Positions 1,101 through 62,565 of a stretch of 64,000 nt of DNA are shown here, piece by piece. The position numbers and the translations under genes are program-made. The first letter of the stretch is position 1. Each line of letters opens with the position of its first letter. Origin of the DNA: Prevotella melaninogenica (lineage in GTDB: Bacteria; Bacteroidota; Bacteroidia; Bacteroidales; Bacteroidaceae); the NCBI RefSeq assembly GCF_003609775.1, contig NZ_AP018050.1, forward strand, positions 1,178,001-1,242,000, read 5' to 3'. The notes below the pieces were generated by a model that saw nothing but the letters and a program-made list of their open reading frames with translations, made no database searches and was not told the origin of the DNA.

Positions 1101-1533
1101 ATTAGGTCTATTAACTATCTTATCTTTGATGGTATTTTCTTGTACGCATAGAAAGCCTATTGAAGTGAAGAAGCATAGAACTGATATTAGCTTTATTAAT
1201 AACCGAGATGTTCATTTTGATATCTTGTATGTGGCTTGCGATTCCTGTTTTCCTATTCACGATATTGGTTATCGTGTACGTGTAAAGTTATCCGCCAACG
1301 AGGATAGCCTTATAAGAACTATTAAGAAAGAACAATGGTTGCAACTTTTGCAGAATTCGGCAACTGATTATGCAGCCAATGCCTTGTTATATTCCCTTTA
1401 CAATCGTGATGCAATAGTTTTATTATACCATAGAGACATCGAAGATTGGAGGATGTCTATGAAGGAAGATGATATAAATTACTGGAAAGGTAATCTTCGA
1501 TTTTGTAAAGAAAATTACAAGGTTGAAAAATAA
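1030..1533 (+). CDS. putative lipoprotein, unknown function
   Basis: Open frame of 167 residues if read from the ATG at 1030; another ATG lies at 979. A hydrophobic stretch LGLLTILSLMVFSC ends in a Cys that could be a lipidation site (residue 38 from this start), followed by a polar acidic body with no motif I recognise. The start is uncertain: both ATGs lie inside the previous gene, and the N-terminal region before the hydrophobic stretch is longer than usual for a signal peptide. No ATG sits between the end of the upstream gene and the hydrophobic core. The pair may therefore be a true overlap or the scar of a frameshift. The stop codon at 1531-1533 lies inside the last unit of a 22-nt repeat array. 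Confidence 0.55.
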   Translation: MTKIHLKDKFYHVFTCGLRAGASKLGLLTILSLMVFSCTHRKPIEVKKHRTDISFINNRDVHFDILYVACDSCFPIHDIGYRVRVKLSANEDSLIRTIKKEQWLQLLQNSATDYAANALLYSLYNRDAIVLLYHRDIEDWRMSMKEDDINYWKGNLRFCKENYKVEK

Positions 1534-1678
1534 TTGAGGCTTAATTCGATTCGAATTAAGCCTTAATTGATGTTCAAAAGGGCGTTAATTGAAGCCTTAC
1601 TAACGCCCTTTAAGAGTCGAAGTAAGCACCTTTTCTTACACGAGTTTGTAATCATTTGATTTACTTTTAGTTACAAAG
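1525..1678 (-). repeat. family A 22-nt array, copy A1 (44-nt leader + five units)
   Basis: Read on the minus strand: a 44-nt leader (1678-1635) starting CTTTGTAACT, then five 22-nt units at 1613-1634, 1591-1612, 1569-1590, 1547-1568 and 1525-1546. Units begin AAAAGGTGCTTA, TAAAGGGCGTTAGT, AATTAACGCCC, AATTAAGGCTTA and AATTAAGCCTCA. The same leader and the same order of units occur at 17899-18052 and 26330-26483. Unit 5 overlaps the end of the preceding gene, and units 4 and 5 together form a hairpin (arms 1537-1548 and 1552-1563) that could end its transcript. Function unknown. Confidence 0.75.
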
Positions 1679-1808
1679 GTAATTGAAAATGCTATATTCT
1701 TATCGTTTTAAGGTATAATATAAGAAAAGTATGTAAACTTTTTTCTAATCCTTATTGTGGTATTTTTAGAGTGAAAATATTACTTATAAGTTTTATGTTG
1801 TTACTTAG

Positions 1809-9314: not shown

Positions 9315-9471
9315 CACAAAATTCTTAAATAATATGGTCGTAAAATAGAAAAACCATACACTATTGTATAAAAAACTTTATATTTTATGTCTGTTTAGAG
9401 TATTATTCCTTTCTTTAATTCCCTAAACTGCTTACGTTTTAAGCCTATAATGCAATTGTAAATACCATCAG

Positions 9472-9548
9472 CACCATACGTGCGGAGCATCAGCACCAAT
9501 GGTGCGGAGTATCAACACGTCATGTGTTTGATTATAACACGTCAATAG
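9472..9548. repeat. family B 22-nt palindrome array, copy B2
   Basis: Palindromes CACCATACGTG, CACCAATGGTG and CACGTCATGTG start at 9472, 9494 and 9516, and a degenerate one at 9538, each 22 nt apart, with linkers CGGAGCATCAG and similar. Unlike B1 and B3 there is no family A array nearby. It lies between two divergent genes (the plug-domain gene and mutS2). Confidence 0.78.
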
Positions 9549-12703: not shown

Positions 12704-14797
12704 ATGAACTACCTAAGGCTTTTACATATACTTCGCAAACAGCGACAGAATCTTCTGTTAGCTGTTGGTGTCACGTTGATGCTGACGTCATGCGGTATAG
12801 ATAGAAATATTAAGAAAGGCGAAAAACACCTTTCCTTGGGCGAATATTATGACGCTGCGACCCAATTCAAAACAGCTTATCAGCGTACATCACCTAAGGA
12901 TAGACGCCAACGAGGAGAGTTGTCTTTGAAGATGGCTGAGTGCTATGAGCGTATTTCGTCTTCTCAACGAGCGATAGCAGCTTATAGAAATGCTATCCGT
13001 TATAAACTGGATAATGGTGAGACGCATAAGCGTTTGGCTGATAATCTAATGAAGGAAGGTAGTTATGCGGAGGCTGTTAAGGAGTATCGCATTGCGCTTG
13101 ATTCAATGCCTAACAATCAATTGATAGCTCAAGAGCTTCAGGCTGCATCAATAGCTGCAAGCGTAAAAGAGCGTGGTTCGAAGTATATTGTGAAGCGTAT
13201 GGACGTGTTTAACTCACGTCGACAAGATTATTCGCCAATGCTTTTCGGTGATAAATACGAACAGCTTTACTTTACTTCTACACGAAATGAAGCCAAAGGT
13301 GATGAAGTGAGTGGTATTACTGGTGCAAAGGCTGGTGACATCTTCCTTAGTGAAAAGGATGATAAAGGTAAATGGAGTACTCCAAAGGCTATTGAGTCTG
13401 CATTGAATACAGAGGCAGATGAGGGTACACCTGCTTTCTCTGTAGATGGTAGGGAGATGTATATTACACAATGCTTGACTGACCCCAGCAACCCTCGCTA
13501 TGCTCAAATATCAGTAAGCAATCGCTCTGATGCTGCTTGGGGAAAGGCTAATAAGTTGGAAATTAGTCGTGATACGCTATCGAGTTTTGCGCATCCTGCT
13601 GTTTCACCAGATGGTAATTGGCTTTATTTCACCAGTGATATGCCAGGCGGAAAAGGTGGTCTTGACATCTGGCGTGTACGTCTGACAGGGGGTACAACAG
13701 GAGGTGTTGAGAACCTTGGAGAACCAATCAATACTCCTGGAGACGAGGAATTTCCTACTTTCCGACCTAACGGTGACCTTTATTTCTCAAGTAATGGACA
13801 TGGTGGTTTGGGGGGGCTTGACATCTTTATAGCTAAAGTTGGTAGCGATCGTCGCTACCACTTGGAACATCCAGGATATCCTCTTAACTCACAAGGTGAC
13901 GACTTTGGTATGACTTTCGAGGGTATTCATAATCGTGGTTTTTTCTCTTCAAACCGTGGGGACGGACGAGGTTGGGATCATATCTATAGCTTTGAACTCC
14001 CTGAAATCATCCAGACTGTGAAGGGATGGGTCTATGAAATGGATGGTTATGAGTTGCCAGCTGCACAGATATTTATGGTTGGTGATGATGGAACCAACAA
14101 GAAGTTAGCCGTCAAAGGTGATGGTTCTTTCGAACAAGAGATACAACCTGGCGTTAATTATATCTTCCTTGCAACCTGTAACGGTTACTTAAATCATAAA
14201 GAAGAGATAAAGGTTGGTAATGTAGATGATTCTAAAATACATACCCTTCAGTTTGCTTTAGCAGGAATCAACGTACCTGTATTGATAGACAACATCTTCT
14301 ATGACTTTGATAAAGCGACACTTCGACCAGAATCAGAGAAGGCTTTGGATGCTCTTGTCAACCTACTCAAAGAGAATCCAAACGTAACAATAGAACTCTC
14401 AGCTCACACTGATTACCTTGGTTCTGCTGATTATAACAAACGTCTTTCACAACGACGTGCAGATGCCGTAGTGGCTTATCTCACTGCACATGGTATCGTT
14501 CGTGACCGCCTTACACCAGTTGGATATGGTAAAGAACGTCCTAAGAAGATTCGTAAGAAGGTCACAGAGAAATACTCTTGGCTGAAAGAAAACGATGTAC
14601 TCACTGAAGATTTCATTAAGAAACTTGATAAGGAGAAGCAAGAAACAGCCAATCAGTTGAACCGCCGTACTGAGTTTACAGTGCTTCGAACAACATACGG
14701 CATGTTTGATGAGAAGGGAAATCTTAAGCAACAGCCAAAACCAAAGAAGAAAGAAAGTCTTGATGATGATGGAATGATAATTATTGACATTCCCTAA
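12704..14797 (+). CDS. porE: PorE-like outer-membrane lipoprotein (TPR, PD40 propeller, CRD, OmpA)
   Basis: A 697-residue lipoprotein (LTSC, lipid Cys at 30). Domains in order: TPR helices (about 35-150, LGEYYDAATQFKTAYQ, YAEAVKEYRIAL), a WD40-like PD40 propeller (about 165-440, repeated SPDGNWLYFTSD, RPNGDLYFSSN), a carboxypeptidase-regulatory domain (about 445-520), and an OmpA peptidoglycan-binding domain (about 530-665, IFYDFDKATLRPES, ELSAHTDYLGSADYN, RRADAVVAYL). This order and length match PorE, which links the type IX secretion machinery to the peptidoglycan. Other OmpA/PD40 proteins of Bacteroidetes can look alike, so the PorE name is likely but not certain. The methyltransferase gene follows after 5 bp. 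Confidence 0.8.
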   Translation: MNYLRLLHILRKQRQNLLLAVGVTLMLTSCGIDRNIKKGEKHLSLGEYYDAATQFKTAYQRTSPKDRRQRGELSLKMAECYERISSSQRAIAAYRNAIRYKLDNGETHKRLADNLMKEGSYAEAVKEYRIALDSMPNNQLIAQELQAASIAASVKERGSKYIVKRMDVFNSRRQDYSPMLFGDKYEQLYFTSTRNEAKGDEVSGITGAKAGDIFLSEKDDKGKWSTPKAIESALNTEADEGTPAFSVDGREMYITQCLTDPSNPRYAQISVSNRSDAAWGKANKLEISRDTLSSFAHPAVSPDGNWLYFTSDMPGGKGGLDIWRVRLTGGTTGGVENLGEPINTPGDEEFPTFRPNGDLYFSSNGHGGLGGLDIFIAKVGSDRRYHLEHPGYPLNSQGDDFGMTFEGIHNRGFFSSNRGDGRGWDHIYSFELPEIIQTVKGWVYEMDGYELPAAQIFMVGDDGTNKKLAVKGDGSFEQEIQPGVNYIFLATCNGYLNHKEEIKVGNVDDSKIHTLQFALAGINVPVLIDNIFYDFDKATLRPESEKALDALVNLLKENPNVTIELSAHTDYLGSADYNKRLSQRRADAVVAYLTAHGIVRDRLTPVGYGKERPKKIRKKVTEKYSWLKENDVLTEDFIKKLDKEKQETANQLNRRTEFTVLRTTYGMFDEKGNLKQQPKPKKKESLDDDGMIIIDIP

Positions 14798-17848: not shown

Positions 17849-17898
17849 TATAATAGTATGTTTCCACTTTACTATTTGTCAGATATTTTCCACAGTTT

Positions 17899-18052
17899 CA
17901 ATTCTAATACATGCTCTTTTAGCTTTTAAAAGATGCTTAATTGGCTTTCAAAAGATGCCCTTTTGAATGCTAACTAACGCCCTTTTGAACCCTTACTAAG
18001 CACCTTTTAAAATGCAAGTTTATAACTATTTGTACTGCTGTGAGTTACAAAC
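17899..18052 (-). repeat. family A 22-nt array, copy A2 (44-nt leader + five units)
   Basis: Minus-strand leader 18052-18009 starts GTTTGTAACT. Units are at 17987-18008, 17965-17986, 17943-17964, 17921-17942 and 17899-17920. They begin AAAAGGTGCTTAGT, AAAAGGGCGTTAGT, AAAAGGGCATCTTTTG, AATTAAGCATCTTTT and AAAAGAGCATG. Each unit is closest to the unit of the same rank in copy A3 at 26330-26483, not to its neighbours, so the whole 154-bp block was copied as one piece. Confidence 0.8.
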
Positions 18053-18226
18053 GCATAAGAAAGAGGTGTTTTTTGATAAATAAACACTCACAACTTCGTT
18101 ACTTTTGTAAAGTCTTTTCGTTTGCATATAGTTGTTTAAAAGTACTTTTCTGACTCTCTACTGCTTTCTTTTAAATGGTAATATTCAATGTGTTTGGTAT
18201 TAAAGAACATGAGTACTTACCATCAA

Positions 18227-18281
18227 CACCACATGTGTTAAGCATCAGCACAATATGTGTTTGGCAAAAACACGTAAGTGA
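18227..18281. repeat. family B 22-nt palindrome array, copy B3
   Basis: CACCACATGTG, CACAATATGTG and CACGTAAGTG start at 18227, 18249 and 18271, exactly 22 nt apart. It lies 174 bp beyond copy A2, in the same relative order as A1 and B1. With A2 and the folA and tamL terminators, it accounts for the 17730-18397 gap. The rest is AT-rich with nothing else I can name. Confidence 0.72.
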
Positions 18282-18331
18282 GAATTGATGTTAGATCATA
18301 TTATAGTTATAGTCTTAGAGAATAATAAGAC

Positions 18332-25964: not shown

Positions 25965-26329
25965 AATATATCCTTACCTGGGTAGGATTAATACGTTAGT
26001 AAACTTAAATAATTAACTGCAAAGTAACACAAAAAAAATGGAATAGAAGAGTTTAGTAAGGTAAAAAAGCAAAAAGAGAATGGGATAAAATAAGGTTCTC
26101 CTGTTTATTGTCTAATCGCCTTTCGTATCGCTTTAATAGAAAAACGGAAATTAGATATAAAACCAACACATAGCCAATATTGTTAACTAATTATTTTCCC
26201 TATATCTTCCTATACTAAAAATCGATTCATTATTATACCCCAAAAGTACAGATGAAGGGATGATATAATATTTACAAAATGCTATGATAAACACATATAA
26301 ATAATGATAAAAATACTGCTAAAAAGAAA
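25965..26329. other. AT-rich intergenic DNA upstream of tamB
   Basis: Holds the possible tamB promoter at 26020-26027 (minus strand). No open frame, RNA fold or repeat that I can support. The region leads straight into family A copy A3. Confidence 0.45.
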
Positions 26330-26483
26330 GTCTGCAACCAACAGTAAATCAACTGGTTATCAATATGTATTTTAAAAGGTGCTTAGTTAGACTTCAAAAG
26401 GGCGTTAGTAACATGCTTAAAGGGCATCTTTTGCAAGTCAATTGGGCGTCTTTAAGAAGCTAAAAGAGCGTATGTTATTTTTG
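26330..26483 (+). repeat. family A 22-nt array, copy A3 (44-nt leader + five units)
   Basis: Leader 26330-26373 starts GTCTGCAACC. Units are at 26374, 26396, 26418, 26440 and 26462, each exactly 22 nt, beginning AAAAGGTGCTTAGT, AAAAGGGCGTTAGT, TAAAGGGCATCTTTTG, AATTGGGCGTCTTT and AAAAGAGCGTATG. It is on the opposite strand to A1 and A2 and has no family B array near it. It lies between tamB and the YigZ-family gene: it is behind the YigZ stop and upstream of tamB. Confidence 0.8.
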
Positions 26484-26586
26484 AAGAGTACGAAAATAGT
26501 TTACAATAACAATAAGTGATTGACTTTTTAAGCCTTAGGCTAATTAGACTAATAAGGCTAATTTGCCGAATATCCCAAAGAGGTAC

Positions 26587-62488: not shown

Positions 62489-62565
62489 CACATATCGTGT
62501 TAAGCCTCCGCACCAGTCGTGCTAAGGCTTCGCACCAATGGTGCGGAGCCTTAACAACATGCTTT
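62489..62565. repeat. family B 22-nt palindrome array, copy B4
   Basis: CACATATCGTG, CACCAGTCGTG and CACCAATGGTG start at 62489, 62511 and 62533; a weak fourth (CAACATG) starts at 62555. Spacing is exactly 22 nt, and linkers TTAAGCCTCCG, CTAAGGCTTCG and CGGAGCCTTAA alternate as partial complements, so the whole array can fold on itself. It lies between the ftsY promoter and the MFS gene end. Confidence 0.8.

Follow-up and report, generated by a model that had tools for sequence, protein, structure and literature searches.

A leader and five tandem units in three blocks

The window, a 64,000-nt stretch of the Prevotella melaninogenica contig NZ_AP018050.1, carries at 26330..26483 on the plus strand a 154-bp block built of units of one fixed length, which raises the question of what kind of element the block belongs to and why its units are kept. 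Direct reading bore out to the base the layout given in the initial annotation: a 44-nt leader at 26330..26373, placed also by alignment of the conserved core, and an array of five exact 22-nt units at 26374..26483, with unit starts at 26374, 26396, 26418, 26440 and 26462 (both features on the plus strand). The two further minus-strand blocks, at 17899..18052 and 1525..1678, are present, and unit 1 (AAAAGGTGCTTA) and unit 2 (AAAGGGCGTTAGT) match their earlier description. Across the family, the leader forms an imperfect inverted repeat, TTTGTAACT..GTTACAAA. The window contains no Rfam match at gathering score. A CRISPR array was considered and rejected, as the units are contiguous, divergent and in the same order in the aligned copies, and are not identical repeats with unique spacers.

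A larger repeat with the block at its core

The initial annotation had proposed a genome-wide search for further copies, with chance as the alternative. Chance is excluded: the unit-2 word AAAGGGCGTTAGT has 122 exact occurrences in the 3.09-Mb host genome, split evenly at 61 per strand, whereas the reversed control occurs once. When the 154-bp block was used in BLAST, each of the 40 candidates scored, among 171 found at first look, matched at E <= 1.1e-29. After duplicate loci were merged, 103 distinct copies, the window copies included, were analyzed with their flanks. Ungapped alignment of these 103 copies revealed a conserved core from about -137 to +112 around AAAGGGCGTTAGT, and all-against-all BLAST located sharp outer ends near -303 and +283. 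A left end was called in 28 copies (two of these belong to another, GC-rich repeat with a single partner), a right end in 23, and both ends in 19. The full-length copy measures about 587 bp and is bounded by terminal inverted repeats (TIRs) of about 20 bp, which read GGTTCTTCCGTTAAATGC.. at both ends in inverted order, with an additional inverted copy of the end sequence about 35 bp inward from the left end. The TIR pattern was found at 63 sites, compared with 4 for its reversed control. The element has no transposase gene, and just 3 of 103 copies have an ORF of at least 80 aa across the centre. The 154-bp block is simply the most conserved portion of this larger element.

Five units of 22 nt stand in fixed order in the copies aligned, the number being read from the alignment and not counted copy by copy. 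Copy L072 carries the unit-2 word twice, and one copy with the motif in a different register (e29) was excluded from the unit statistics, leaving 102 copies. BLAST did not detect arms in 73 of the 103 copies, about ten of which show worn arms by eye; in the remaining armless copies the core ends sharply, with a motif resembling a direct repeat, about GAAAnATnnTTACAAAA. These core-only copies may be the same element minus its ends. A GC-rich repeat (CAGCCCCACCCCCAACTCCTCCCCC..) lies next to some copies (L091 and L095, near locus position 1200).

Target duplications, empty sites and a related transposon

The repeat is almost certainly a MITE. Its flanking 8-mers agree at 7 or more of 8 positions in 11 of 28 copies, compared with 10 of 2000 random placements, the copies used being the 28 of 39 TIR-found loci that scored at least 430. 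Perfect 8-bp duplications flank L005, L006, L011, L016, L021 and L073. At L021, which adjoins a gene that we take to be mnmG, the joined flanks are contiguous, with a single ACTTTTCT, in G146, G132, G379, G003 and G310. In G348 the same flanks lie 588 bp apart, separated by a MITE 90% identical to the host copy with ACTTTTCT on both sides, and G124 matches one flank only. Thus, among seven related genomes, the site is empty in five, filled in one and undecidable in one. At the L005 site, the G310 match runs through the junction without a break (251-660, 84%), while the other genomes match on one side or on both sides at different places, G124 giving no match.

The sister genome G348 contains six matches to one ISL3 transposase, four with an open frame and two with a stop, which NCBIfam names ISL3 family transposase. 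Two copies of this autonomous IS are identical over 1307 bp, with the ends GGTTCTTCCGTTAAATGGATAGAT and GGCTCTTCCGTTAAATGCGTAGA, and 8-bp duplications flank three of the three copies with exactly locatable ends once the boundary is moved one base inward. The MITE ends share 17-24 bp with the 1307-bp IS, and the L014 MITE copy has 48 bp at 92% in common with its left end. We found no ISL3 element with MITE-type ends in the host genome, which has six PF01610 matches, those that can be bounded having other ends. The plain reading of these sequence comparisons is that a transposase of the ISL3 family, for which that of G348 is an example, would mobilise the MITE in trans. The inverted ends, the 8-bp duplications, the exact empty site and the autonomous ISL3 element with like ends all support the earlier suggestion of a non-autonomous mobile repeat.

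Two other sources were considered and discarded. IS1595, a candidate parent by its 8-bp target duplications and GG ends, has no PF12762 match in the host genome. Host ISL3 elements were examined as the source of the array at L114 and L115, which at first resembled a transposase followed by an array; these are different ISL3 elements that have landed within or next to MITE copies. The nested elements span 1896-3217 in L114 and 2621-3918 in L115, with the ends GGTTCTTCAGGAATTTGG / GGTTCATCCGACATTTCG, and the 8-bp TAAAATAT is common to both MITE halves in L115.

Copies in the window

An nhmmer model built from 23 full-length copies places the whole surviving element around the first block at 26094..26507 (plus strand; model positions 1-415 of 588, E=6.9e-81). 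A worn left TIR lies at 26094..26115 (plus strand; ggttctcctgtttattg.. compared with GGTTCTTCCGTTAAATG.., model position 1 falling at 26094), and the right arm and right end are absent. Since the match is limited to model positions 1-415, the 26330 copy is an old MITE whose left end is worn and whose right arm is missing. The second copy, at 17862..18073 (minus strand; model 217-432), is core-only, with its units at 17899-18008. The third lies at 1564..1772 (minus strand; model 144-352), with units extending to 1525. All three window copies (26094, 17862 and 1564) have same-site copies in G146, the genome of a sister species. Together with the alignment of copies, this supports the initial view that the block was copied as a whole and that its period is old. 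In P. jejuni and six other species (L190-L196), the 26330 locus has matches only to the right of 26587, except for short element matches in L191. Arrays of this family, here called A, are absent from about 60 kb of the host, from 26.5 kb to 64 kb of the window and on to about 86 kb; the corresponding stretch of G146 holds one A copy only, a MITE absent from the host genome.

Distribution and age of the copies

The full element matches 20 of 398 same-genus genomes, host genome included, at E <= 0.001. We also counted a 13-base word, one mismatch allowed, over 18 genomes. This yielded 176-219 words in G146, G132, G348 and G310 and 78 in G124; the other 13 genomes have at most 13 words each, many no more than the 0-3 per strand of the control.

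Within 464 kb of the host genome, 30 copies were placed, of which 24 have a same-site copy in G146. The other six comprise one absent from G146 (a full-length MITE), one not colinear, one matched on one side and three unplaced. In the reverse view, the 43 G146 copies divide into 24 shared, 8 absent from the host, 2 one-sided and 9 unplaced, and seven of the eight absent copies are at least 437 bp long, the eighth being 274 bp. From these sequence comparisons, the copies appear to form two age classes, younger full-length MITEs and older copies that mostly lack ends. Comparison with the more distant G310 covered 200 kb of each genome, some placements being rough. Two of 10 host copies are absent from G310 and none is shared; two of four G310 copies are absent from the host and again none is shared, the others being not colinear or unplaceable. 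With 0 of 4 placeable copies at a shared site, A sites are not anciently fixed, which implies that the core-only class too was mobile or turned over on a longer scale.

The units diverge less than neighbouring intergenic DNA

We compared the units with their surroundings in 24 host-G146 pairs of copies. Units 1-4 are identical at 0.887 of aligned positions (1866 of 2104 bases, 8 unaligned), compared with 0.779 for the 5' half of the core (67 unaligned), 0.849 for outside intergenic DNA (273 unaligned) and 0.902 for coding DNA (29 unaligned). In unaligned bases per kb, the values are 3.8 for the units, 24.5 for the core 5' half, 39.8 for intergenic and 1.6 for coding DNA. Relative to nearby intergenic DNA, the units of these pairs hold about seven-fold fewer gap bases. 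In paired tests the units differ from the core 5' half (p=1e-6, 24 pairs) and from intergenic DNA (p=0.003, 22 pairs), and compare with coding DNA at p=0.62 (23 pairs); for the two of the 24 pairs that lacked gene calls, the outside DNA was treated as coding. Removal of the worst pair, which has a 117-base intergenic gap, left 23 of 24 pairs, with a gap difference of p=3e-12 and a substitution difference of p=1.5e-6.

Copy detection leans on the units and is thereby biased towards conservation. However, a core-only copy recognised in G146 and eroded in the host would score as absent, and the placeable copies include only one of this kind. Among copies located through their TIRs, the core is only modestly better conserved than the arms: 0.891 compared with 0.855 for the left arm (26 of 39 TIR-found loci, p=0.002), and 0.888 compared with 0.860 for the right arm (18 loci, p=0.04). 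Taken together, we consider it likely that the units are under selection.

The foremost alternative is a purely selfish MITE, whose array would serve transposition or copying only and whose conservation would reflect recent common origin or conversion between copies. Genuine MITE anatomy and insertion polymorphism speak for this, as do the turnover of sites relative to G310 and the modest size of the core excess in end-found copies. However, fixed orthologous copies keep their units while their own 5' half decays, at the 0.887 and 0.779 given above, and most such copies have no recognisable ends and are hence expected to be dead. We regard a selfish array as rather unlikely. The slower change of the units relative to their surroundings suggests that the array still has a function at gene ends.

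Placement at gene ends and spacing of the copies

Genes were called as ORFs of at least 90 aa picked by length (at least 80 aa for the mixed set below) and not with a gene finder. By these calls, 13 of the 21 core-only host copies lie between convergent genes, 8 between codirectional genes and none between divergent genes, compared with 14, 47 and 19, respectively, of 80 element-free gaps of at least 150 bp. The G146 core-only copies (31 of 32 fell in a scored gap) comprise 16 convergent, 14 codirectional and 1 divergent, compared with 27, 66 and 33 such gaps. The convergent excess has p=1e-4 in the host and 0.001 in G146, and the divergent deficit p=0.01 and 0.003. Against gaps of at least 300 bp, the convergent excess has p=0.003 and 0.04. 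As the host and G146 share most sites, these placement tests are not independent. A larger mixed set of 101 copies contained 34 convergent, 51 codirectional and 16 divergent.

The smallest spacing between copies is 6.3 kb in the host and also in G146 (P <= 0.0002 compared with random intergenic sites). Genome-wide, none of 97 word spacings falls below 3 kb, where 11.4 are expected under a uniform null; 100 of the 122 word sites were used, and merging one tandem pair left 99 sites and 97 spacings. Evidence for evenness beyond this minimum differs between the two genomes, the CV being 0.83 in the host (null P=0.33) and 0.62 in G146 (P=0.007). The minimum spacing may come from function or from recombinational loss of close copies. 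The host and G146 differ by an inversion of about 24 kb between the opposed copies L105 and L106 (G000 C2:904 kb and 927 kb), and each breakpoint has an A copy at it or close by.

RNA structure and DNA bending

A transcribed array might act as RNA, as a terminator or 3'-end stabiliser of the flanking genes. Placement at gene ends and between convergent pairs would fit such a device, and so would the predicted folding energy, which for both strands is lower than in shuffled sequence (mean z -3.1 and -2.35; 60 of 102 copies). Perfect hairpins of 12-17 bp, built from exactly reverse-complementary units, are present in 9 of 102 copies; in 93 of the 102, the longest perfect inverted repeat within the array is 4-9 bp. 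The hairpin arrays are window 1525-1678, L080, L082-L086, L092 and L103, and look as if a unit had been copied backwards in register. In the third window block (1525-1678), units 3-5 are partly inverted words that give hairpins, and a 12-bp hairpin from these inverted units, followed by a T-rich tail, lies at 1537..1563 on the minus strand. This is the sole match of the terminator scan within the three window arrays, and alone it is not significant, since the region gave 1 match compared with 2.4 in shuffles.

Against an RNA-level device, the scan returned no terminator score at the 26330 and 17899 arrays, and the codirectional copies have no orientation bias (25 compared with 26, of 101 scored). 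Covariation was assessed for seven stems, whose paired fraction is hardly above that of partner-shuffled controls (best 0.868 compared with 0.863), with few compensatory changes and with P=0.02-0.04 for the strongest pairing signals. RNAalifold on the ungapped copies predicted a single short stem for one strand and no stem for the opposite strand. Conserved RNA structure is thus unsupported by covariation, and we hold an RNA-level role to be unlikely. Intrinsically bent DNA, with A-tracts phased every 11 bp, is very improbable: units 3 and 4 do have the form A4-N7-T4-N7 and the A-tract is often kept through substitutions (AAAA to AATT, TTTT to AATT), but the second tract is missing from unit 2 (0 of 102), and a wedge-model calculation lends bending no support, placing the arrays below dinucleotide shuffles (z about -1) with a curvature of 24 degrees compared with 42 in flanking DNA. 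What is left, we infer, is a DNA-level site in which pitch and order matter.

A probably selected array carried by a MITE

The best explanation overall, to which we give a probability of roughly 55%, is a MITE core in which selection maintains the array, probably because a protein binds it at the ends of genes. The block would be the internal core of a non-autonomous element whose full form is a MITE of about 587 bp with ISL3-type ends. Judging from the genome comparisons, an ISL3-family transposase, for example the intact one of G348, would move the MITE in trans, and after intergenic insertion the arms would decay, with the five 22-nt units being held in register by purifying selection. The array would then present phased sites to a single abundant chromosome-binding protein, at the 3' ends of genes and often where two genes converge. 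The array of binding sites suggested in the initial annotation would fit both the selection on the units and their 22-nt pitch; at that pitch, close to two turns of B-DNA, each unit might present the same face. There might be one array per several kb, working much like the BIME/RIB repeats of enterobacteria. Taken by itself, the assignment of the array as a protein-binding site at gene ends is tentative. The first candidate for the binder would be a gyrase- or HU-like wrapper, although gyrase or HU in particular is a distinctly unlikely choice. The excess of predicted folds over shuffles on both strands counts against the selected MITE core, as a pure DNA model does not need it.

A second family of 22-nt arrays

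A second family, B, has palindromic 22-nt units (GCACCAATGGTGCGGAGGCTTA-like) and lies in the window at 9466-9518, 62494-62551, about 18180-18290 and about 1790-1890. Two of these arrays adjoin the A copies at 17899 and 1525. By a strict pattern, there are 21 B arrays in 344 kb of the host and 34 in 540 kb of G146. Among arrays selected at a pitch of 22 or 44, give or take 1-2, 80 of 83 steps are exactly 22 and 3 exactly 44; none is 21 or 23. Convergent genes flank 9 of the 21 host arrays and 17 of the 34 in G146, and divergent genes 2 and 2. Nearly all placeable host B arrays (19 of 20) are shared with G146. Their identity is 0.898, compared with 0.861 in nearby intergenic DNA (p=0.017), and their gaps are higher, 56 compared with 20 per kb. 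No clear minimum spacing was found for B arrays (P=0.14 in the host, 0.03 in G146). Both host sites that match G310 A arrays (L311 near 63-339, L314 near 14316-14581) hold B-type GCAC/GTGC words, which may be coincidence.

In the host, 1 of 23 A copies has a B array within 1 kb, and in G146 2 of 43, compared with 23% of random gaps, under a null that includes gaps holding B arrays (p=0.018 and 0.0015); as the pattern missed the B array beside 1525-1678, 2 of 23 is the fairer host count. A and B arrays alike are often at gene ends and are retained at orthologous positions, and they are seldom close to one another. We raise as a doubtful conjecture that the A and B arrays, with one 22-bp pitch and unlike sequences, are a selected chromosomal device, spread via borrowed transposon ends, on which a single chromosome protein of the wrapping or filament-forming kind could land.

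Relation to known elements and significance

BOX elements of Streptococcus pneumoniae are modular repeats with a repeated middle unit, like the Prevotella element. The two differ in unit length, host and ends, and are set apart by description and not by sequence. The ends GG(T/C)TCTTCCGTTAAATG and the 8-bp duplications match the G348 element of the ISL3 family; unlike an ISL3-family IS, the Prevotella element is a MITE without a transposase gene, with about 17-48 bp of end sequence in common. Among the papers listed in searches of the open-licence PMC literature, we found no report of the Prevotella element.

The initial annotation went too far in recognising no known element of this form, as BrickBuilt of Porphyromonas gingivalis is described as a MITE with a 23-nt minisatellite (PMC4596501). 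The published description gives BrickBuilt 1 to 22.8 units per copy, 19 copies, IS5-type ends GAGACCTTTGCA (GAGACC..), target duplications that differ in length, and filled and empty sites between strains; it also refers to 22-nt repeats that had been noted before in P. gingivalis W83, their exact locations not being given (PMC4596501). Like BrickBuilt as described there, the Prevotella element is an intergenic MITE from the same bacterial order, has a tandem minisatellite of 22-23-nt units between a leader and a tail, and matches an IS at its ends and not in its interior (PMC4596501). Unlike it, the Prevotella element has 22-nt units, five in the aligned copies, with 122 exact unit-2 words, ISL3-type ends GGTTCTTCCGTTAAATGC, 8-bp duplications and evidence of unit selection; this distinction rests on the description and not on unit sequence (PMC4596501). 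BrickBuilt is the closest published element that we found, with the same architecture and other units, ends and parent.

By proposed way of working, the nearest would be the BIME, REP and RIB repeats of enterobacteria, for which binding of gyrase or IHF has been reported (PMC2817692). As far as their description goes, they resemble the Prevotella element in being high-copy intergenic mosaic repeats at gene ends (13 of 21 of our core copies convergent, 0 of 21 divergent), whereas the Prevotella units are not REP palindromes and have ISL3-type ends in place of a REP-associated tyrosine transposase (PMC2817692).

These results connect a very abundant, unexplained Prevotella repeat with a named transposon family, of which a sister genome carries intact transposase copies. 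They also present an unusual case in which the cargo of a MITE is apparently selected copy by copy. Should the arrays prove to be binding sites, chromosome organisation in Bacteroidales could be approached through sites defined by their sequence, beginning with the simple question of whether one protein binds the A and B arrays alike.
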